Source: Bdellovibrio sp. KM01 (GTDB lineage Bacteria > Bdellovibrionota > Bdellovibrionia > Bdellovibrionales > Bdellovibrionaceae). Taken from it: a stretch of DNA of 64,000 nucleotides. A model generated the notes under the pieces. That model was not told the origin of the DNA, did not search any database, and worked only from the letters and a program-made list of their open reading frames with translations. How positions within the stretch are numbered: position 1 is the first letter of the stretch; every line of letters starts with the position of its first letter. The position numbers and the translations under genes are program-made. The stretch lies in NCBI RefSeq assembly GCF_013752535.1, contig NZ_CP058348.1:3472001-3536000 (forward strand), read 5' to 3'. Positions 5,495-43,292 of the stretch are shown in pieces.

Positions 5495-6907
5495 TTAAGC
5501 CATCTTTTGCAGAGTGATTTCCATCTCCGTTCCGCGACCGTCTTTAACCGGGCTTTTGATATTCACTTTGCCATCGTGGGCTTCCACGACCGCTTTTACA
5601 AACGTCAGCCCCAAGCCCATCCCATATTCAGAACGGCTCTTGTCACTGCGGTAAAGCTTTTGCCAGATCAGACCATGCTCTTCCGGCGCAATACCAGGCC
5701 CAGAATCCGTGACCTTTAAAATCACGCTTTCTGTTTGATTGATCGTTTCAATAATCACTTCACCACCTGGTGGAGTATATTTATGCGCATTATCCAAAAG
5801 ATTTGCGATCACTCGGCTGATCAATCGAGGATCCACCATCGCCCAATCATGGGTATCCAGCTTCTGCGTGATTTTGATGTTCTTTTCCTCGAACGCCATC
5901 TCATACAGATCCATGATTTCACGCACCAGATCACTGATGAATTTCTTTTCGATTTTAAGCTTTTTACTGCGGTTTTCGGCCTCTGTGATATCCGTCAGAA
6001 CCTGCAGGAAACTTAGAATCTTATCTGAGTTTTCAAAACAGCTTTGCAAAGCTTCGCGGTAAGACTCAAGGTCACCTTCGCTGGTCAATGCGATTTCCGC
6101 ACGTCCACGCAAACGAGTCACCGGAGTACGAATATCATGGGCCAAATGGTCAAAGGCCTCTTTAAGTCCATTCACCAGATTTTCAATTTTATCCAAGGCC
6201 TTATTGAACAGAAGCTTCAGTTCTTCCAATTCGTCATCGCTGCCACCGATCGGAACACGAGTGGAAAGTGATCCCCGCTCGATCTTTTTCATCGAGTTGA
6301 TCAAGTCACGCACCGGGCTCAGTGTGGAATTGGACAGGAACAAGCCCCCCAGGAATCCAATCAATGCCACCGGAAGCAAAGACCACCAAAAAAGCTTTTG
6401 CAGATAACGGAGCTGCTTGCCCATGCCGGCGGTGCTTTTTGCGATAATCAGCCGTTCGCCACCTTTCAAGTTACGACCCAAAACCAAAACAGCCTCGGTG
6501 GAGGAAGCTTCGGGTAAGGAGAACTCAAAGGACGTTTCGCCATGACGATTCAGCTCGTTCAGCAATAGGTCTTTATTGATATCAAAGGCTGGAGTGGGAT
6601 TGTGCGCGAACAGCAATTCGCTGCGACCGCTGTAAATTTCCACTAATAGGGAAGCATCTCGATCATAATTGCGCAGCAATTCAAAGTACTGCTTAAAGTC
6701 GGCCATGCCGTTTACTTCAATACGATTCGCAAATTCTTCGGTTTTGGATTCAAGAATAGCTCGCTCCTGGTTTTGGAGCGAGTGAGTGATCTGAAAGTAT
6801 AGAAAACTAAAGATCAGTGTCGAGCTAAGAATCAGTACCATGGAGTACGCGAGCGTAAGCTTGGTACTGATTCGGAATAGCGTGGGTTTAAGTCCCTTTA
6901 AGAACAT
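5495..6907 (-). CDS. Sensor histidine kinase with periplasmic sensor and HAMP domain
   Basis: This 470-residue inner-membrane kinase has a first membrane segment at about residues 17-39, a periplasmic domain at about 45-170, a second segment at about 173-192 and a HAMP linker from there to about 245. The phospho-acceptor histidine is H257 in AFDHLAHDIRTPVTRLRG. A HATPase domain follows, with the N box (NLLDNAHKYTPPGG), DSGPGIAPEE and GMGLGLTFVKAVVEAH. It overlaps the end of the response regulator gene by 20 bp, so the two are a cognate pair. No stimulus can be inferred. Confidence 0.93.
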   Translation of the reverse strand: MFLKGLKPTLFRISTKLTLAYSMVLILSSTLIFSFLYFQITHSLQNQERAILESKTEEFANRIEVNGMADFKQYFELLRNYDRDASLLVEIYSGRSELLFAHNPTPAFDINKDLLLNELNRHGETSFEFSLPEASSTEAVLVLGRNLKGGERLIIAKSTAGMGKQLRYLQKLFWWSLLPVALIGFLGGLFLSNSTLSPVRDLINSMKKIERGSLSTRVPIGGSDDELEELKLLFNKALDKIENLVNGLKEAFDHLAHDIRTPVTRLRGRAEIALTSEGDLESYREALQSCFENSDKILSFLQVLTDITEAENRSKKLKIEKKFISDLVREIMDLYEMAFEEKNIKITQKLDTHDWAMVDPRLISRVIANLLDNAHKYTPPGGEVIIETINQTESVILKVTDSGPGIAPEEHGLIWQKLYRSDKSRSEYGMGLGLTFVKAVVEAHDGKVNIKSPVKDGRGTEMEITLQKMA

Positions 6908-7571
6908 AACCTACACCTCTGACTGTATAAATAAGTCGTGTAGGGAAATCTTTTTCTAATTTGTTTCTTAGGCGGCATACCAATACGTCTACCACATTCG
7001 TTTGTGGATCGAAATCATAATTCCAAACTTCCTTCAGGATCGTTTGTTTACCGATGATTTTATTGGGGTTGCTCATGAAAAGATCCAAAAGAACGAACTC
7101 GCGCTCTTGAAGATCCAATTTACGACCGGCACGAACCACATCACGGTTCAGACGGTTCAGACGGTTCAATTTCAAATCCTGGAATACCAGTTGAGTCACT
7201 TCAGAAGCTTTTTGAGCACGCTTCAAAAGGTTTTTCACGCGGATTTGCAGCTCAGCCATGGCGAATGGTTTCGTAAGATAGTCATCGCCACCCATGCTGA
7301 GACCTTTCAATCGGTCATCAAGCTCGCGCAAAGCGCTTAAGATAAGAATTGGTGTGTTGATTTCCTTTTCGCGCAAAGATTTCGCGAAAGTGTAACCATC
7401 CATTTCTGGAAGCATTAAATCCAGAACGATGATGTCATAATGATTCGTCAGAGCTCTTTCGTAAGCACGTCTTCCGTTGGATTCAACTTCGACTTCACCT
7501 TCAAGCTCTCCTAAACCTTGCTTTACTATCGTTGCGATCTCGTTGTCGTCTTCAACTACTAAGCATCTCAT
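6888..7571 (-). CDS. OmpR/PhoB-family DNA-binding response regulator
   Basis: This 227-residue protein has a receiver domain (acidic pocket VVEDDNE, phospho-acceptor D51 in DIIVLDLMLPEMDGY, K101 in LTKPF) and a C-terminal winged helix with the usual VWNYDFDPQTNVVDVLVCRLRNKLE and YTVRGVGYVL segments. GAGGGG lies before the ATG. The first gene of a two-gene operon with the kinase, it is likely autoregulated. The linker carries three consecutive LNR tripeptides (residues 135-143) encoded by a 9-bp tandem repeat, which is unusual. Confidence 0.94.
   Translation of the reverse strand: MRCLVVEDDNEIATIVKQGLGELEGEVEVESNGRRAYERALTNHYDIIVLDLMLPEMDGYTFAKSLREKEINTPILILSALRELDDRLKGLSMGGDDYLTKPFAMAELQIRVKNLLKRAQKASEVTQLVFQDLKLNRLNRLNRDVVRAGRKLDLQEREFVLLDLFMSNPNKIIGKQTILKEVWNYDFDPQTNVVDVLVCRLRNKLEKDFPTRLIYTVRGVGYVLKGT
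7143..7169. repeat. 9-bp tandem repeat, three copies, inside the response regulator gene
   Basis: Three head-to-tail copies of ACGGTTCAG (the last ending AA) encode LNR-LNR-LNR on the minus strand, at the start of the DNA-binding domain. The period is a multiple of three, so copy-number change would keep the frame. Confidence 0.9.
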
Positions 7572-19757: not shown

Positions 19758-20168
19758 TTATCTGCCTTCGGAAGCTGCGTACTTCAGAGCCGCCATTTTT
19801 TTATTGATCAGCTGAAGCGCAGTTTTGTACATGATCGCATTCTCTGACAGCGCCGACATTTCTTTTTCCAGGTCCACAGTGTTGCCGTCATTGTTCACAG
19901 CACCCTCTGGATTTTCATAAATATCAGGTCGAGTTTTAGCCACCGAAACACCACCCAGCGCGAAATGCTCGCCGCTGCTGGTGCTAAGGGCGTTCATGCC
20001 ATCCATATTTAAGGAACGAGACAATGCCTCTTCGAAATCCATCTTTTTTGCGTGATACCCTGGAGTCTCCGCATTAGCGATGTTAGAGGAGGTTACATTG
20101 TTACGCATCTGGCGCATACGCATCGACGTCGCCAGCGCGTTCGTTGTTTTATCGAAAATATCACTCAT
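19758..20168 (-). CDS. flgB: Flagellar basal-body rod protein FlgB
   Basis: This 136-residue rod protein has the FlgB N-terminus (LATSMRMRQMRNNVTSSNIA, NAETPGYHAKKMDFEEALSR) and the C-terminal helix NTVDLEKEMSALSENAIMYK. Its ATG overlaps the stop of the upstream regulator gene (ATGA), so the regulator and the rod genes are translated as a unit. Confidence 0.96.
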   Translation of the reverse strand: MSDIFDKTTNALATSMRMRQMRNNVTSSNIANAETPGYHAKKMDFEEALSRSLNMDGMNALSTSSGEHFALGGVSVAKTRPDIYENPEGAVNNDGNTVDLEKEMSALSENAIMYKTALQLINKKMAALKYAASEGR

Positions 20169-21007
20169 GCGACACCTTCTTCCCTGTACTCGTTAAGTTT
20201 GTTTCTTAAAGTTCGGATACTGATTCCAAGCATTTGCGCCGCGCGCGTGCGGTTCTGGGCCGTCAGTTCCAGGGTCTGAAGAATCAGACGCTTTTCCACC
20301 GCAGAAAGGGACATTCCGGGAGCAAAATCTGCCGCCGTATCATCCTGGATGGATTCAAATTGAATAGAAGCGACTTCGATGGTCTGGGTCTTAGCCAGAA
20401 CCACGGCGCGTTCTATAACATTTTCAAGTTCGCGGATATTTCCTGGCCAGTTCCAGCTGGTCAAACGGGCATAGGCATCCGTTGAAAAATGCATGCCTGA
20501 ACGGCCATGCATAATCTGAGTAACTTCCAGGATAAAACTCGCAATCGTATTGAAATCGCCGGTGCGATCTTCAAGACGTGGAACTTCCAAATGAATCACT
20601 GCAATTTTATAAAACAAGTCCTGTCTGAATTGTTCCTGCTTCACCATCGCGCGCAAATCGCGACGGGATGTGGAAATGAAACGTGGCTTTGTGCCATCCG
20701 TTCTTTCCGCAAGCTTCATCAACTCCGCCTGAACGTGAGATGATGCGCAATCCAAATCCTCAATTAGTAAAGTGCCGCCATCAACTTTATCAAAGTTAAA
20801 ACCACCGGCGTTTTTGCATTCCAAAACCTGAAGCTTCCCCGAACGGCTTTTAGAGTAAATGTAACGAGCCAGACTGGTTTTACCCACACCGGCTTCACCA
20901 AGCACCAAGAGACTTGCTTGTGTTGCTGCCAACTGCAAACCCAACTGCTTTGCTTCGTTCATTTTTCTGTCTTCGATGTTCAAAGCATCAAAATCAAAAT
21001 ACGACAT
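20165..21007 (-). CDS. AAA+/Fis-type regulator of the sigma-54 activator family lacking the GAFTGA loop
   Basis: This 280-residue protein has Walker A (GEAGVGKT, 37-44), an altered Walker B (TLLIEDLD, 79-86, where activators have TLFLDEIGD), the arginine-finger segment FRQDLFYKI (127-135), WPGNIRELEN (187-196) and a Fis-type helix-turn-helix (NRTRAAQMLGISIRTLRNKL, 252-271). It has no receiver domain. The stretch between Walker A and B is about 25 residues shorter than in the NtrC-type protein at 41880. What is gone is exactly the ESELFGH-GAFTGA region that contacts sigma-54. It may be a TyrR-like or accessory flagellar regulator rather than a sigma-54 activator. It overlaps flgB by 4 bp. I could not name it. 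Confidence 0.85.
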   Translation of the reverse strand: MSYFDFDALNIEDRKMNEAKQLGLQLAATQASLLVLGEAGVGKTSLARYIYSKSRSGKLQVLECKNAGGFNFDKVDGGTLLIEDLDCASSHVQAELMKLAERTDGTKPRFISTSRRDLRAMVKQEQFRQDLFYKIAVIHLEVPRLEDRTGDFNTIASFILEVTQIMHGRSGMHFSTDAYARLTSWNWPGNIRELENVIERAVVLAKTQTIEVASIQFESIQDDTAADFAPGMSLSAVEKRLILQTLELTAQNRTRAAQMLGISIRTLRNKLNEYREEGVA

Positions 21008-21020
21008 CCTGTCTTTACTC

Positions 21021-23795
21021 CTACTTGCTTTCCTGCTTGTCCGCTGCCATTGCGGGAATTCTTTGAATATACTTTTTATAACCGTCTCGCCATTCGGAGT
21101 TCTTCAGCTGCTCTTGTGCGAGATTTTTCCAGAATCCACTTTTTTGACCCTTGAATTCGTTCCAAACCTCAGCAGCCTTTTGAACTTCGCCGCGATTAAA
21201 ATAAATCTGACCCAATTTGTATCTGATGGAAGAAAGAGGTCTTGTGTCCTCGTACTGTTCCAAAAGATTTTTATAAGAGCCAATCGCTTTGTCTTTCTGA
21301 CCGGCTTCCAGGTACACATTCCCCATCATTTCCAAAGCTTTGGCATGAACCACCGCTGGAACCTTTTGAGAATCGGTTTTCAATTTATCGATCATTCCCA
21401 AAGCCTGAAGAGCTTCGTCTTTTTTACCTTGCTTCAATTGAAGTTCTGCAAGTTTCAAGTAAGGCTCTGCCACCAACTCCGGCTGACCTTTCCAGGTTCT
21501 TAGCAACTCTCCCAAATAACGAACCGCGGAGTCCGTGTCACCACGACGCTCTAGCAAGCGAACTGCAATTCCCACGCGCTCGATCTGATCGTTTTCAGAA
21601 AGCTTCTCTGGATTTTTGATATTCTTAAGGTACTCGTAAGCTTGATTGTATTTTTGCTCATTCGAAGAAACTGCCGCCAGACGTAAATTTAATTCTTCGA
21701 TAGAAGGAACTTCTTCCTTGACGCTGATCTCTTTGGCCTCAGGAGTGCCTTGCAAAGCATACACACGATTCAACACTTCTTTGTAATAGCGTTCAGACTC
21801 TGCCGGAGTTCCCGCCATTTCAAAAGCGCGACCGACATTGAATTTTGTATCCAGACGGTTAGAGTTTTTCAACCAGTTGTCAGCATATTGACTGTGAGTT
21901 TTCAAGGCACCGATGAAATCGCCCTTTTCAACTTGATCGTCCAATTTACTGTTGATGTTGCCGATAATTCGACCGGTCAACAAAGGAGCATCGACAGAAC
22001 CTGGATGTTCCTTATAGTACTTCGATAAAAGATTTACGGACTTATCAAACTCTCCACGTTGAGAGTAACCATCCGCTACCATCACAGTCGCAAATTGCTC
22101 CATGTTTGGCAGATCCACTTTCTTCGCAAGTTCCATGATTTCTTTAACGGCGTTGGCTGTTTCTTTGGGTTTCATGCCCTTCATACGAGCACTCAACAAA
22201 CGCAAACGCGCGATCACCGCGCTGGGCGTTTCGCCATAGCGGAAATATGTTTCAAGATAAGCACCCATCACGCGGGATTTGTCAGCACCCAAGATATCCA
22301 GCAACTCCCCAAGGCGGGTCATCGCATAAGGAGCATGGTCACTGGATGGGAATTTTTTAACAAACTCACGGTACATGTCCAAACTTTGGGGATACATTTT
22401 CAACCCAAACATGGATTCAGCCTGGTTGTAAAAAGCATTCGGATAAATATTTTGACCCTCTGGATATTTCTTCAAAGAGTTTTTGTATTCATCAACGGCC
22501 TTCGCGTAATTCTTAGCGCGAACCCAGACGTCACCACGACGGTAAGCGGCTTCCACTTTCAAATCACGGTTTGTAGAGTTTTTTTCAATCTCATTAAACT
22601 GCGCAACGGCATCGTCCCATTTATTTAAACGCATGAAAGCCAAGCCCGTGCCCATACGAGCCAGGTCTTTGGACAATGATTCTTTTCCACCGAAGTTTTT
22701 ATTTTCGATATGCTCTTTGAACAGACGAAGGGCTGCCAAATTATCGCCACGATCCAAAGTCAAATAGCCAACCTTCAATGACGTTCGTTCCGCCAAAGGA
22801 GATGTTGGGTATTTTTCAATCGCTTCTTTATATTTCTGAACGGCTTCGTCAAAGTATTCCATTTTTCCGCTTTGTTTGTACAAAGCAAGATTCACGTCGC
22901 CCGTCATGAAGTCGATGATTTCGTTGTATTCAGACTTTGGATACTTTTCGCGGAACCATTCACGAGTTTTCAAATAGACGGCGTAACGTTCTTTTTCAAA
23001 AAGAGTCAAAAGCAGACGCGCCTGCTTGTTTTCTTCAGTTCCTTTGGGAGTGATCTCGTAAATAGTTGGAGTGATTTTTAGTTTTTCCCACTGGGCCACC
23101 GGAGTTTCCAACATAGGAAAGGAGATATAATAGTTATCTTTGGCACGAATGATCGAGTCTTCCTTAATATCATAAGGTTTGATCGAAAAACGTTCATAGT
23201 TGGGATCCCCACCATCAAAGATACCGGATTGGATCTGATCCGCTTGCGCCACCACAGTTCCCGAATCCTTGATTGCCAACGCATCTGAAGTAGCTGGCTT
23301 GCGGTTTGTAGTTTTAACTTTCGCAATTGTTTTTGCAGACTTAGGCGCTGCCTCTGTCGTTACCGTTTCATCTTTTTTAGCTGGAATTTTTTTGGCTGCT
23401 TTAACCATATTGGGATTTAAATAGAAATCCATGATCAAGCGGGAAGGTTGGTCAGTCAGATAATCAAAAGTATCAACGCTTTCACCAGCCAGTGTGAAAG
23501 AGATCACAGATTTACCATCCGTGCCCTGAGCATCCACTGTTACTTTGGTAACCATGTCACTTTTAAATGTGTTGAGTGACTTGATCGTGGATTCATCAAG
23601 AGCAGGGACAGTCATACGGACGATGGTCTGGCCTTTGTCATCCAAACGCTTCACATCGTAGTCCCAATTTTGTTGGCCCAATAACTCCAAATGCACAGTA
23701 TCGCCCTGGAAGTTGATGAAGCCATTTACTTTGTTATTTGCTGCATTGGCGACTAGACCAAAGCAAAGGCATCCTGCCAAAATTACGTTGCGCAA
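21021..23795 (-). CDS. Periplasmic AMIN-domain and TPR-repeat protein heading the flagellar operon
   Basis: This protein of about 924 residues has a signal peptide (ending ANA), an AMIN-like beta domain (about residues 20-125, ending DYLTDQPSRLIMDFYLNP) and a lysine/threonine-rich linker. From residue 250 it is filled with tetratricopeptide repeats (for example FYNQAESMFGLKMYPQSLDM, AVHAKALEMMGNVYLEAGQK). AMIN domains usually target envelope sites or peptidoglycan, so this may be a scaffold for motor or envelope assembly. GAGGAG lies seven bases before a TTG at 23795 but abuts the GTG at 23804, so the TTG start is favoured. A sigma-54 promoter lies just upstream. Confidence 0.75.
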   Translation of the reverse strand: MRNVILAGCLCFGLVANAANNKVNGFINFQGDTVHLELLGQQNWDYDVKRLDDKGQTIVRMTVPALDESTIKSLNTFKSDMVTKVTVDAQGTDGKSVISFTLAGESVDTFDYLTDQPSRLIMDFYLNPNMVKAAKKIPAKKDETVTTEAAPKSAKTIAKVKTTNRKPATSDALAIKDSGTVVAQADQIQSGIFDGGDPNYERFSIKPYDIKEDSIIRAKDNYYISFPMLETPVAQWEKLKITPTIYEITPKGTEENKQARLLLTLFEKERYAVYLKTREWFREKYPKSEYNEIIDFMTGDVNLALYKQSGKMEYFDEAVQKYKEAIEKYPTSPLAERTSLKVGYLTLDRGDNLAALRLFKEHIENKNFGGKESLSKDLARMGTGLAFMRLNKWDDAVAQFNEIEKNSTNRDLKVEAAYRRGDVWVRAKNYAKAVDEYKNSLKKYPEGQNIYPNAFYNQAESMFGLKMYPQSLDMYREFVKKFPSSDHAPYAMTRLGELLDILGADKSRVMGAYLETYFRYGETPSAVIARLRLLSARMKGMKPKETANAVKEIMELAKKVDLPNMEQFATVMVADGYSQRGEFDKSVNLLSKYYKEHPGSVDAPLLTGRIIGNINSKLDDQVEKGDFIGALKTHSQYADNWLKNSNRLDTKFNVGRAFEMAGTPAESERYYKEVLNRVYALQGTPEAKEISVKEEVPSIEELNLRLAAVSSNEQKYNQAYEYLKNIKNPEKLSENDQIERVGIAVRLLERRGDTDSAVRYLGELLRTWKGQPELVAEPYLKLAELQLKQGKKDEALQALGMIDKLKTDSQKVPAVVHAKALEMMGNVYLEAGQKDKAIGSYKNLLEQYEDTRPLSSIRYKLGQIYFNRGEVQKAAEVWNEFKGQKSGFWKNLAQEQLKNSEWRDGYKKYIQRIPAMAADKQESK

Positions 23796-23837
23796 AGTGT
23801 TCACTCCTCGAACCCCTTTTCCCCTGCGTTATGCATT

Positions 23838-23853
23838 TGCACATACGATGCCA
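23838..23853 (-). promoter_or_regulatory. Sigma-54 (-24/-12) promoter for the flagellar operon
   Basis: On the minus strand the sequence TGGCATCGTATGTGCA matches the RpoN pattern TGGCAC-N5-TTGCA in its key positions: GG and GC ten bases apart, with TGGCA and TGCA intact. It lies about 35-45 bp before the start codon of the first gene of the operon, at a workable distance. Sigma-54 control of basal-body and hook genes is well known in several Proteobacteria. Confidence 0.72.
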
Positions 23854-23912
23854 GCCTTGCAAAGGTCTATTGGCAAATATGTTCAAGATGGGCAAAATGT
23901 TTCATAGAATTA

Positions 23913-23928
23913 TTGTCAGGCCTGACAA
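23913..23928. promoter_or_regulatory. Perfect 16-bp palindrome in the divergent spacer
   Basis: TTGTCAGGCCTGACAA is a perfect palindrome. It is placed 60 bp upstream of the sigma-54 element and about 80 bp before the lipoprotein gene at 24007. It has the size of a dimeric regulator or enhancer site. No regulator can be assigned. Confidence 0.5.
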
Positions 23929-24006
23929 AGCGATGACAGCGACGTTGGTCTGGATTGAATTTGTAAGACTGAATTTTCCGTCAGAAAATTCCGATAGATA
24001 GGCGAT

Positions 24007-24495
24007 ATGAAAAACCACTTTAAATACATCATCATGAGCTTACTTCTTGGCAGTTGCGTATCGGTGGAACTCCCTGGTGGCAAGGTAACGGCCGCTAAAG
24101 ACGTGGAGTTTTCGGAGCCTGGCGGAGACTATTCCAAAATTAAAGCCAAAGGTGCGGATCGCGCATGGCAGAGTTCTAAAACGGGAAACACTATTTCCTA
24201 TATCTCTGAGTGCGGCGGTAATACCGACGCGAGTTTGCAGACTTTGGAAACAGAGTCGTTGAGTGCATTGAATAAATTGGAAGTTTTAAAAACGGAAGAA
24301 AAGCTTTTTAATGGACGTGCTTCCCGCCAAACGACTTCAGTAGGTTCCATCGATGGCGTACCCGTAGCACTTTCTCTGGTGGTCTTTAAAAAGAACGGCT
24401 GCAACTATACCTTGAGTTATGGTGGCGTTGAGAAACAATTCAATTCGGAACTTCCCGTATTTGAAAATTTCAAAGCAAACTTCAAGGCACCATAA
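24007..24495 (+). CDS. Lipoprotein of unknown function, first gene of the mlaEFD operon
   Basis: This 162-residue protein has a lipobox (LLGSC, Cys at about residue 17), so it is probably an outer-membrane or inner-membrane lipoprotein. The rest contains a predicted alpha/beta domain with two further cysteines (SECGG and KNGCNYTLSY). It has no motif I recognise. Its stop codon is directly followed by the mlaE start, which suggests a role with the lipid transporter, perhaps as an accessory lipoprotein; this is inference. Confidence 0.7.
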   Translation: MKNHFKYIIMSLLLGSCVSVELPGGKVTAAKDVEFSEPGGDYSKIKAKGADRAWQSSKTGNTISYISECGGNTDASLQTLETESLSALNKLEVLKTEEKLFNGRASRQTTSVGSIDGVPVALSLVVFKKNGCNYTLSYGGVEKQFNSELPVFENFKANFKAP

Positions 24496-39237: not shown

Positions 39238-39921
39238 ATGACCATGATCAAGTCCATCGCATTCGATTTGGATGACACCTTGGTAGACACTTCGGGTCTG
39301 CTGGTGCCTATGGCTTCTCAGCGCGCATGCGAGGCGATGATCGCCGCTGGCGTTTGTATTTCCCTCGAAGAATGTATGCGCATTCGCGAGGAATTGGCGG
39401 CCAACCTTTCCCACACAGAAATTTTCACCAAGATCGCGAATCAGTACGGAACCAATACGCCCGGCAAAGCTGTACATGATGCTTTGGAGATGTTTTATAA
39501 TCCCGAAGTTCCCCCGGTTCTGCCTTTGTTGGCAGGTGCGACTGAAAATCTTTTACACCTGAAAGAACAATACAACTTGTATCTGGTGACGATGGGTTCT
39601 TACGAAGCCCAGGTCCGCAAGATCCAAGCCTTGGGTGTCGAAAAGTTTTTTAAAAAGATTTACATCCTGAACGGGTTTATCGGCGAGAAAAAAGAATCGG
39701 CTTTTCAAGACATTCTGGCTCGCGAGGGTCACAGTCCTGATGAACTGATCAGTATCGGCAACCGCCTTTCCAGCGAGATTCGCGACGGAAAACGCGTCGG
39801 GGCCAGAACTTGCTACTTCGCCCATGGCGAACACATTGGCGAGCAGCCCGTTTTCCCAGAAGACCATCCTGACTTTACCATCACTCAGCACAAGGATCTT
39901 ATCACCGTATGCGGACTTTAA
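39238..39921 (+). CDS. HAD-superfamily hydrolase
   Basis: This 227-residue protein has motif I (FDLDDTLVDT), motif II (LVTMGSYEAQ), a motif III lysine in IGEKKESAF and motif IV as SIGNRLSSEIRDGKRVGA. It is probably a phosphatase of small metabolites, with a substrate I cannot assign. The second methionine (39244) is an alternative start. It overlaps the following kinase gene by 13 bp and may be part of the same transcript as mpaA. Confidence 0.88.
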   Translation: MTMIKSIAFDLDDTLVDTSGLLVPMASQRACEAMIAAGVCISLEECMRIREELAANLSHTEIFTKIANQYGTNTPGKAVHDALEMFYNPEVPPVLPLLAGATENLLHLKEQYNLYLVTMGSYEAQVRKIQALGVEKFFKKIYILNGFIGEKKESAFQDILAREGHSPDELISIGNRLSSEIRDGKRVGARTCYFAHGEHIGEQPVFPEDHPDFTITQHKDLITVCGL

Positions 39922-41765
39922 AGGCGAGCTTCCTGCTGATCGGTCCGTGGGACTCGCGCTTGCAAGAGTTGGGGGCTCACATTGCCACCGATCTGCAACA
40001 GGCATGGCATTGGATTCAAGATTCAACTTATAACGTGGTCGCAGTTTCAGTCACAGTGATCCTGGGCAAACGCTTCAATGAATTTTATCAAGAAATTAAA
40101 CAGAACAGCCCGGCGACCCAATTCATTGCAGTTGTGCCGCCGGACTTTTCTGCCAATCAATTGAGCCGCTTGCACGAGGAATATTCTTTTATCCGCGTGA
40201 TGCACAGTTTTAATGACACGGATTTAGAAACTCATCTGTTTACAGCACTTGAGGAAGCCAATCAGCGCAAGCAGGATGAAAACTTGGCTGTGCTGATTCG
40301 CGAGCAAACTGAAAAATTAAAACGTCTGCAAATTGAATTGGAAGAGCGGGTTCAGAAAAGAACCAAGTTCCTAACCGAAGCTCGCCGCAAACTGTATTTG
40401 ACGAACTCCCGTATCGAGGGATTCAAAGTGGCGTTGATGGCGGTTCATCAGGCAAGTTCCGTCGCCGAGATTGAACAGCTTTTGAACGAATCTTTGGCGA
40501 CGACCGTACAAACTTCGTGGATTCGTATTTTCTTTTCTCCGCAGGACGAGCAGTTTTCCAGCCAGGTGACGGCTCAATTAAGTTTTACGCAGCTACAAGT
40601 GCCTTTGTTTAAAATGCATGATCGAATTGGTTCAGTCTTTTTCCTGCGTGCGCCCGATCATCCTTTCAACAAGGAAGAAAGCGATTTCCTGACTCGCGTG
40701 GCAGAGGCTGTTGCCCTGGCTTTAGATCGTATTCAGAAATTAAAAGAATCAGAGTCCATGAAAGAACAATGGGAAGCGACATTCAACTCGATGTCGGATC
40801 CCGTCGTATTGATTGATCAGAATTACGACATCATTCAATCCAACAAAGCCGCTGAAGAACGCCTGAAAGAGCGCGAACATCCTCAGAACACCCGCAAGTG
40901 CTATGCTTTATTGTACAACCGTGAAGAACCTTGCCCGGGTTGCCAACGCGGACGTAATTTCCGCATGCGTTCGAATGATCCGGCACCTCGCAGTTTCGAT
41001 GTTTTCAGTCAGAGTTTGCTGTTGGACAGCGATAAGCCTGCGGTCTTCGTGAATCTTTATCACGACGTCACTCAACAGATGAAAATGGAAAAGCAAATTC
41101 TGGAATCTGCAAAAATGGCAGAGCTTGGAACGATTGGCTCTTCCATCGCGCATGAACTGAACAATCCATTGGGTGGAATTTTATCATTCACTCAGTTGAT
41201 CAAAATGGACATGCCGGGTGATCATCCGCTTTATCCAGATATCTTAGAGATGGAAGCCGGAGTTCAACGCTGTAAAGAGATCGTCATAAATCTTTTAGGT
41301 TTCACACGCAGCTCAACATCAGATCAAGAAGGTGACGTCAGCCTGAAAGACGTGTCCCAAAGGGCTTTCAAGATTGTCGAACTACAAACGAAATCCCAAG
41401 GAATCGAAGTCCGCTTGCACTTCCCGGCTCAGGATATTTTCGTCAAAGGTCATTTAAATCTCTTGGCCCAAGCTTTGAAAAACGTTTTCCAAAACGCGAT
41501 CGACCATTTGACAGATCGCAGCCGACAAATCAAAGGATTCCGAGCTTCCCTCGATATTGAAATTGGGTCCAGTGAAGACGTTGCTACTATTTTAATCAAA
41601 GACAATGGGACCCCAGAGAAAAATCCAAGTCTTCCCATAGGTTTAGGTGTTCCTGTTGCCGCTCAGATCCTGCGCGATCACGAGGCCGACCTCGAATTTT
41701 ACACGGGTCCAGGCCAGGAAAACGTGGCAAAAATTTCCTTCAACCGTCTAGTTTTAAGGTCCTGA
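39909..41765 (+). CDS. Soluble sensor histidine kinase with pseudo-receiver, GAF-like and Cys-PAS domains
   Basis: This 618-residue protein has no membrane segment. Residues 1-120 resemble a receiver fold but lack the phospho-acceptor aspartate (YNVVAVSVTVI). A coiled coil follows (125-165), then a GAF-like region (170-275) and a PAS domain with CYALLYNREEPCPGCQRG (331-348), a cysteine-bearing PAS type that may sense redox or bind metal. The kinase core has H415 (IGSSIAHELNNPLGG) and a HATPase domain (DNGTPEKNPSLPIGLG). The NtrC-type regulator downstream is its probable partner. Confidence 0.88.
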   Translation: MRTLKASFLLIGPWDSRLQELGAHIATDLQQAWHWIQDSTYNVVAVSVTVILGKRFNEFYQEIKQNSPATQFIAVVPPDFSANQLSRLHEEYSFIRVMHSFNDTDLETHLFTALEEANQRKQDENLAVLIREQTEKLKRLQIELEERVQKRTKFLTEARRKLYLTNSRIEGFKVALMAVHQASSVAEIEQLLNESLATTVQTSWIRIFFSPQDEQFSSQVTAQLSFTQLQVPLFKMHDRIGSVFFLRAPDHPFNKEESDFLTRVAEAVALALDRIQKLKESESMKEQWEATFNSMSDPVVLIDQNYDIIQSNKAAEERLKEREHPQNTRKCYALLYNREEPCPGCQRGRNFRMRSNDPAPRSFDVFSQSLLLDSDKPAVFVNLYHDVTQQMKMEKQILESAKMAELGTIGSSIAHELNNPLGGILSFTQLIKMDMPGDHPLYPDILEMEAGVQRCKEIVINLLGFTRSSTSDQEGDVSLKDVSQRAFKIVELQTKSQGIEVRLHFPAQDIFVKGHLNLLAQALKNVFQNAIDHLTDRSRQIKGFRASLDIEIGSSEDVATILIKDNGTPEKNPSLPIGLGVPVAAQILRDHEADLEFYTGPGQENVAKISFNRLVLRS

Positions 41766-41788
41766 AACGCCCACTGGGCGCGGATTTT

Positions 41789-41804
41789 TTGACAGGCCCG
41801 TCAA
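41789..41804. promoter_or_regulatory. Inverted repeat upstream of the NtrC-type regulator
   Basis: TTGACAGGCCCGTCAA has 5-bp arms extended by flanking T- and A-runs. It resembles the palindrome at 23913-23928, sharing the CAGGCC centre. It may be an operator or a weak terminator of the kinase gene. TTGACA could also be a -35 box, but no good -10 follows. Confidence 0.35.
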
Positions 41805-41879
41805 AAATACCATATCCTTTTATCAAGGCTGACAGTACGTCGGCTGTCTCTCCAAGAACCCACCATGGAAGGAAGGTTC

Positions 41880-43292
41880 ATGCGTTCACAACGTGTTCTA
41901 ATCCTGGATGACGAATCGTCTCTGCGTACCGCTCTTTTCAGAGTGCTCGACAGAAAAGGTTTGAATGTCATCACTGCCAACAAAATCGAAGAAGCGAAAG
42001 CACTTTCTCAAGGGGACACTCCTATTGATTTAGCTATCGTTGATTTGAATCTCCCAGACGGAGATGGCATCGAGTTCATGACTTACCTAAAAGCTCTGAA
42101 CCCCGCTTGTGAAGTGATTATCCTGACGGGTCACGCGACGATTGAGTCTGCGATACGTGCGACACAAAAAGGTGCCTTCCACTTTGTGACGAAGCCATTC
42201 AATCTTGAAGAGCTGATGAGCTTGATCGAAAAAGCTCTGACTCATAAAAAACTTCAGCAAGAAAACCAACAGCTTCGCTCTGAATTGAACAAGAAATACA
42301 AATTCGACCAAATCGTGGGTTCTTCTGAACCTATCCAAAATGTTTTGCGTTTGATCGAACGTGTTGCTGATTCTGATTCAACGGTTTTGGTAACGGGCGA
42401 GTCAGGCACGGGTAAAGAGTTGATCGCGCGCGCGATTCACTACAACTCCCCTCGCGCCCAAGGACCTTTTATTCCGATCAACTGTGGTGCGATTCCTTCG
42501 GAACTTTTGGAAAGTGAATTGTTCGGCCACATGAAAGGTGCCTTCACAGGCGCTATCGCAAACCGCATCGGTCGTTTTGAAATGGCTGACGGTGGTACGA
42601 TCTTCTTAGATGAAATCGGTGACCTTGAGCCTTCTTTGCAAGTGAAACTTTTGCGTGCTCTTCAAGAACGCAGTTTTGAACCGGTGGGTTCAACAAAAAC
42701 GGTTTCCGTCAATGTTCGAGTGATTGCAGCGACCAACATTCACCTGGAAGAAGCTGTTGAACACGGCCGCTTCCGCGAAGATCTTTACTATCGCCTGAAT
42801 GTTATTCCTATCCACGTTCCGGCTTTGCGCGAACGTAAAAGCGACATTCCTTTGTTGTTGAACCACTTTATGGAGATCTTCAATAAAAACAAAGGTCGCG
42901 GTTTAACTGGAATTGCTGCTGACGCTTTGGATGCTTTGGGAAATTACCCATGGCCCGGAAATATTCGTGAGCTTGAGAATTTAGTTGAGCGCATGACGAT
43001 CCTTAAAGGTCAAGGCACTGTCGAGATGAATGATCTTCCGGTGAAATACAAATCCATGAAACCTGTGGCTTCCTTGGATGCAAGCCAGATGGAAATTCCT
43101 GACAGCGGCATGGACTTTAACACGGCGGTTGATAACTTCGAGAACAATCTGATCTTGAAAGCTTTGGAAAAAACCGGATGGAACCGCAATCAAGCTGCGG
43201 CGTTGTTAAGACTGAACCGCACCACGCTGGTGGAGAAGATCAAAAAGAAAGGTCTTACTCCTCCGAACGATATCAATCCTTCCAATTTCTAA
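41880..43292 (+). CDS. NtrC-family sigma-54-dependent response regulator
   Basis: This 470-residue protein has a receiver (D55 in AIVDLNLPDG, K105 in VTKPF) and an AAA+ domain with Walker A (GESGTGKE, 173-180), GAFTGA (220-225) and Walker B (IFLDEIGD). The arginine-finger segment FREDLYYRLN and a Fis-type helix-turn-helix (WNRNQAAALLRLNRTTLVEK) follow. It activates RpoN promoters. GGAAGGAAGG precedes the ATG at 41880, which I prefer to the ATG at 41865. The upstream histidine kinase is the likely partner. Confidence 0.95.
   Translation: MRSQRVLILDDESSLRTALFRVLDRKGLNVITANKIEEAKALSQGDTPIDLAIVDLNLPDGDGIEFMTYLKALNPACEVIILTGHATIESAIRATQKGAFHFVTKPFNLEELMSLIEKALTHKKLQQENQQLRSELNKKYKFDQIVGSSEPIQNVLRLIERVADSDSTVLVTGESGTGKELIARAIHYNSPRAQGPFIPINCGAIPSELLESELFGHMKGAFTGAIANRIGRFEMADGGTIFLDEIGDLEPSLQVKLLRALQERSFEPVGSTKTVSVNVRVIAATNIHLEEAVEHGRFREDLYYRLNVIPIHVPALRERKSDIPLLLNHFMEIFNKNKGRGLTGIAADALDALGNYPWPGNIRELENLVERMTILKGQGTVEMNDLPVKYKSMKPVASLDASQMEIPDSGMDFNTAVDNFENNLILKALEKTGWNRNQAAALLRLNRTTLVEKIKKKGLTPPNDINPSNF

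Follow-up and report, generated by a model that had tools for sequence, protein, structure and literature searches.

The window analysed here (64,000 bp of Bdellovibrio sp. KM01, from a genome of 3.96 Mb in a single contig) contains a flagellar gene cluster, in which a regulator gene with an ATG start codon is situated between flgB and a gene for a TPR-repeat protein. The 3' end of the regulator gene shares 4 bp with the start of flgB, and flgC, fliE, fliF, fliG, fliH, and fliI follow 3' of flgB in this order. A histidine kinase and an OmpR-type response regulator are located directly behind flgE in the flagellar cluster (5495-7571, minus strand). The regulator gene, its parts, and its two neighbours are arranged as follows:

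19758..20168, minus strand: flgB, its start overlapping the stop of the regulator gene
20165..21007, minus strand: regulator gene (280 aa), a relative of FlbD/FlrC without the L1 and L2 loops
20180..20311, minus strand: Fis-type helix-turn-helix (HTH), residues about 233-276, the most constrained part (dN/dS ratio 0.015)
20681..20707, minus strand: junction of the second deletion (about 10 residues, L2/pre-sensor-I insert), residues about 101-109
20750..20770, minus strand: altered Walker B LLIEDLD (DE to ED), residues 80-86
20780..20824, minus strand: junction of the 25-residue deletion (ESELFGH...GAFTGA, L1), residues about 62-76
20879..20899, minus strand: Walker A GEAGVGK, residues 37-43, kept (coordinates derived from residue numbers)
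21021..23804, minus strand: gene for the TPR-repeat protein (927 aa), upstream neighbour in the same orientation, syntenic throughout the order

Pfam detects in the regulator, in this order and all above cut-off, the AAA+ core (PF14532/PF00158), AAA_lid_14 (PF25601), and HTH_8 (PF02954; 2e-13), and no N-terminal sensory domain; the motifs GEAGVGK (Walker A), FRQDL, and WPGNIRELEN and the Fis-type HTH are all found. An earlier note on this DNA had described Walker A, WPGNIRELEN, and the HTH as retained and a receiver as absent, and the 280-aa reading frame agrees with it on both counts. Concerning curated families (NCBIfam), the regulator scores best with FlbD of Caulobacter (NF050807), with 189.7 bits against an equivalog cut-off of 750 bits, whereas it reaches 107 bits with FlgR and, at a rank well below FlbD, 87 bits with TyrR. 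Besides not being its best match, TyrR is set apart by N-terminal sensory domains, which are absent from the regulator.

Lost loops, altered catalytic residues, and selection

Sigma-54 activators are characterised by GAFTGA (L1), the L2 insert, the D-E pair of Walker B, the switch Asn, sensor I, and two arginine fingers. The roles of single residues were placed on the regulator by alignment, under the names customary for PspF-type proteins. From Walker A to GGT-Walker B, the regulator spans 40 residues, compared to 65 in the intact enhancer-binding proteins of its own genome. The shortening by about 25 residues and the absence of ESELFGH and GAFTGA, both reported in the earlier note, are thus confirmed by reading frame and alignment, as is the altered Walker B. 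A further deletion, overlooked in that note, takes out the L2/pre-sensor-I insert (about 10 residues), and the insert Gly of L2 is missing in 52/52 sequences tabulated from the regulator's own family. Within the genus Bdellovibrio, the switch Asn has changed to D/E, Walker B D-E to E-D, sensor I to R, and the second arginine finger to K (the latter in 23/23 sequences), and the Lys of Walker A, the first arginine finger, and the sensor II Arg are retained. The arginine-finger region, considered to be kept in the earlier note, is therefore kept in its first Arg but not in its second.

By sequence comparison, neither GAFTGA nor the L2 insert nor the catalytic set of a functional bEBP is present in the regulator. 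With the two loops and the majority of catalytic residues missing throughout the family, the earlier view that this is not a standard activator holds; its observation was correct but understated, since the loss of L2 and further catalytic changes have to be added. The regulator is probably a sigma-54-incompetent, ATPase-dead DNA-binding protein. A local lesion or a sequencing error, the former considered already in the earlier note, is excluded by the identical state in all 23 genus sequences tabulated together with purifying selection (see below); intact copies of GAFTGA are found only in other families and not in close relatives.

An AlphaFold2 model of the regulator shows AAA+ core, lid, and HTH with confidence (mean pLDDT 89.6) and corresponds to an FlrC-like AAA+ core minus the two inserts. 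Its closest folds in the PDB are the domains of FlrC (Z 22.9, rmsd 2.1, 212 residues) and NtrC1, with NtrC1 and FleQ domains within Z 1 of FlrC; such a common fold says nothing about activity.

Among sequences of the genus, dN/dS amounts to 0.006-0.072 for the regulator, compared to 0.011-0.038 for flgB. Concerning the parts of the protein, values are 0.015 for the HTH, 0.03-0.04 for the core, and 0.10 for the lid. Residues of the HTH, including R265, T266, L267, R268, N269, and K270, are invariant from Desulfobacterota to Bdellovibrio (56 aligned sequences). From the low ratios, lowest in the HTH, and from these invariant residues it follows that purifying selection maintains the remnant, above all for DNA binding. 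The constraint on P-loop and core within the genus suggests a role beyond simple DNA binding.

Relatives across the order

Almost everywhere in the order, the gene is situated between the TPR gene and flgB (TPR gene, regulator, flgB). Descent from NtrC/FlbD/FlrC agrees with the domain order given above and with synteny, as the regulator adjoins flgB also in many Desulfobacterota and some Deferribacteres. Outside the order, the flgB-adjacent relative mostly possesses GAFTGA and an additional N-terminal length (a receiver, e.g., in L029), whereas in other families of the order the ortholog at the same position lacks a receiver and mostly retains L1 and L2; of 27 sequences from other families and five from outside the order, nearly all are intact. 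Since the intact orthologs of the order are already receiver-less, the absence of a receiver is not part of the event in which the loops were lost.

In the regulator's own family (f1), which is monophyletic in a tree of TPR protein, FlgB, and FlgC (support 0.999), L1 and L2 are both gone in all 52 sequences tabulated. The Glu of Walker B is replaced by Asn in most genera of f1 other than Bdellovibrio and g3, and the Lys of the P-loop by Arg in five sequences. In genus g3, the reading frame comprises 239-260 aa in most genomes and 137-141 aa in three. These short forms consist of a lid remnant and HTH_8 (model pLDDT 89.5) and resemble Fis, with the DNA-binding domain of NtrC1 and Fis as weak top matches in phmmer (E 0.03-0.3); they differ from Fis in their lid-derived helical N-terminal part and in their location in a flagellar operon, and the likeness is not meant as orthology. 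In eight flagellated genomes of f1, the gene is absent and the TPR gene abuts flgB. On the tree, these losses map to no fewer than three or four separate positions, and a search for a relocated copy in the f1 genomes without the gene found none.

Two independent losses of L1 are present outside f1, namely in L028/L165 (family f2, L1 eroded) and in L153/L164 (L1 deleted; L164, of genome G094, belongs to family f10). L2 still exists in L164 and in L028/L165, which suggests that L1 was lost before L2. One further copy outside f1 (L156) is substituted to GAFVGA.

The operon promoter

The putative promoter of the operon lies in front of the TPR gene:

23837..23853, minus strand: sigma-54 -24/-12-like element TGGCATCGTATGTGCAA before the TPR gene, recognised by conservation
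23869..23879, minus strand: box B (TATTTGCCAAT), putative regulator site
23888..23905, minus strand: box A (ATGAAACATTTTGCCCAT), putative regulator site, weak dyad
23914..23927, without strand: palindrome TGTCAGGCCTGACA, putative enhancer (UAS) of another sigma-54 activator

The pattern TGGCAY-N6-TGCWW is found upstream of the TPR gene in 51/61 upstream regions of the order; controls yielded none in reversed sequences, none in shuffles, and six in the remaining 473 kb of sequence. As a genome-wide enrichment of this pattern was sought and is absent (20 vs. 23 in the control), the reality of the element rests on its conservation. It persists in six of the eight genomes without the regulator gene, from which we infer that the operon is activated by a protein other than the regulator. 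A loss of sigma-54 in the family was rejected, rpoN being present in 15/15 family genomes tested.

The palindrome TGTCAGGCCTGACA is situated about 60 bp above the sigma-54 element in most of the genus (its end at about 61 bp from the -24 element), with variants elsewhere and an additional TGTCA beside it (23934-23938). It is still recognisable in two loci without the regulator gene (L217 and L218). The strict palindrome occurs once in the genome, as does the longer composite without mismatch. Given this single occurrence and the control-level counts of the sigma-54 pattern, no regulon can be read from either, and a regulon-wide role of these patterns was rejected. Elsewhere in the window (39909-43292, plus strand), a HisKA kinase gene is followed by a gene for an NtrC-type regulator with intact GAFTGA, and the latter is preceded by two imperfect sites resembling the palindrome (41790-41834), which are at chance level. 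Concerning flagellin promoters, the sigma-54 element is found neither in the own family nor in others, such that a switch of regulon at these promoters is not demonstrable, and the sigma-28 pattern applied to them was so strict that its outcome carries no information. A sigma-28-like sequence CCGATAGATA was noted by eye at 23986-24006, directly before the divergent gene at 24007 (plus strand).

Between palindrome and -24 element, TTT[GT]CC boxes (TTTKCC) are located, phased about two helical turns apart. In f1, they occur in 37/43 promoters of operons with the regulator gene vs. 0/6 without it, and in other families in 7/23 promoters, with a shuffle expectation of 0.3-1.8 per group. The motif was defined on the same sequences on which it was scored, the promoters scored without the gene being six, and the naive hypergeometric P of 6.6e-5 for the co-occurrence carries less weight owing to relatedness among the genomes. 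In the genus and in several other genera, the distance from box end to -24 element is about 38 bp for one box and about 19 bp for the other; other genera of f1 exhibit one of these two spacings or a single box at about 22 bp, and in g3 box B is missing. In L224 and L225, which encode the short form of the protein, the palindrome lies 10 bp farther out and so does the box, a shift of one helical turn. The dyad symmetry of box A is weak (0.418 vs. a background maximum of 0.384), and the box-pair pattern, with 34 matches in the own genome, is not specific alone. The earlier note had named a repressor, a co-regulator, or a mixed-hexamer partner as possible roles. As genomes without the gene retain the sigma-54 promoter but have no boxes, the pattern favours a putative role of the regulator as a promoter-local modulator.

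Possible function and comparison with known systems

We assign a probability of roughly one half to the reading that the regulator is a converted FlbD/FlrC-type ortholog which would now bind DNA locally and thereby modulate its own sigma-54 operon. It would probably tune this flagellar operon, with switching on left to another activator. An HTH dimer of the regulator would bind the putative TTTKCC boxes in helical phase between the palindrome and the -24/-12 element and might there modulate looping or the access of polymerase. Its part could be that of a repressor/autoregulator acting locally or that of an IHF/Fis-like architectural helper. A different, intact sigma-54 activator at the palindrome would carry out the activation. 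In the genus Bdellovibrio, the regulator may still use its nucleotide-binding core to oligomerise across both boxes. Support for such a modulator comes from the stepwise erosion of the core in f1 while the HTH stays; the genus-level constraint on P-loop and core speaks against it. The conversion to the loop-less state, placed in the ancestor of the family, is part of this reading. A more far-reaching scenario appears tentative, namely that one family preserves the stages from an ATP-driven enhancer-binding protein to a small Fis-like architectural protein, with loops and catalysis, core, and gene lost successively, phased sites co-evolving, and the sigma-54 promoter passing to another activator.

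FlbD resembles the regulator in its Fis-type HTH and its flagellar role, but possesses a receiver and GAFTGA, both of which are missing here together with the L2 insert. It both activates and represses, acting as a repressor of fliF from ftr4 (PMC3930126). FlrC of Vibrio, likewise a flagellar regulator and the closest AAA+ fold in the PDB comparison, differs in its ATPase activity, in its GAFTGA and receiver, and in having FlrB as its partner kinase (PMC3930126).

The retained parts of the core also fit a mixed hexamer, in which the regulator would contribute DNA binding and part of the ring, and an intact enhancer-binding partner the GAFTGA loops: purifying selection within the genus preserves Walker A, the first arginine finger, and the lid, the model retains the FlrC-like ring-forming core, and the palindrome and the two boxes together form three sites on one helix face at intervals of about 20 bp. 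A precedent exists in the FleQ/FleT hetero-oligomers of Rhodobacter sphaeroides, where fleT is located in the fliEFGHIJ operon (PMC7277832), which is under sigma-54 and another activator. FleT, an atypical enhancer-binding protein, however, has no DNA-binding domain (PMC3162934) and is thus the reverse of the regulator. Furthermore, neither the switch Asn nor the second arginine finger is left. Much of the family is without Walker B, sensor II, or the entire core, and g3 is without box B, yet the HTH and one box are mostly retained. With relatives that consist only of a lid remnant and HTH, mixed hexamers are no general explanation; they are unlikely overall, but conceivable within the genus Bdellovibrio, which conserves Walker A and the first arginine finger.

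Relatives with defective GAFTGA have been described before, e.g., TyrR, DhaR, HupR, and VpsR (PMC3162934), and the NtrC proteins of Rhodobacter capsulatus and Caulobacter, with natural deletions of GAFTGA, still regulate transcription (PMC10274813). The regulator could, like either of these NtrC proteins or VpsR, act at sigma-70 or sigma-28 promoters elsewhere in the genome: characterised GAFTGA-less relatives are reported at sigma-70 promoters (PMC10274813; PMC3162934), and FliA is reported as a main regulator of the attack phase in Bdellovibrio (PMC3627812). These NtrC proteins, however, keep their receivers and nucleotide-binding motifs important in vivo, whereas the regulator has lost L2 and catalytic residues and is associated with a retained sigma-54 promoter. 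As the promoter of the resident operon appears sigma-54-dependent, the gene-linked boxes are situated there, and this analysis found no sign of other targets, such a role is rather improbable. A decaying relic heading for loss and of little function would explain the repeated absence of the gene from flagellated genomes without a relocated copy; dN/dS close to that of neighbouring flagellar genes, lowest in the HTH, and an E-D Walker B and loop-less architecture common to all 23 genus sequences make it very unlikely.

In the reference strain, flgB is Bd3407 (PMC12546842), so that the regulator is probably Bd3408. In the literature searched, no description of the gene was found, and a search for Bd3408 found none either. 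While enhancer-binding proteins without GAFTGA have so far been known one by one, new here is that the loss of both loops and of catalytic residues coincides with a kept sigma-54 promoter, with phased boxes co-occurring with the gene, and with forms that grade down to an HTH-only protein. Because intact, loop-less, core-less, and absent forms exist at one conserved locus with a conserved sigma-54 promoter, the consequences of each loss for the promoter become comparable. The putative modulator would represent a rewiring of a flagellar control circuit in which sigma-54 is kept, and it is relevant to how a predatory bacterium regulates its flagellum, about which little is known.

Concerning the flagellar sigma-54 activator, a receiver-less enhancer-binding protein of 342-355 aa with intact GAFTGA/GSFTGA, whose gene lies close to a flagellin gene in many of the order's genomes (L331 5819-6874, 351 aa, about 760818-761873 on C1 of the own genome; L332-L337, L339, L340), is a candidate for the working activator, with no link to the palindrome in these data. 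Its gene is located beside a recombinase gene (phage-integrase family) and usually close to genes for a lysine/alanine-repeat protein and flagellin. The lysine/alanine-repeat genes (L331 9005-9622 and similar in L332-L340) encode histone-like proteins and are found close to flagellin in many genomes.
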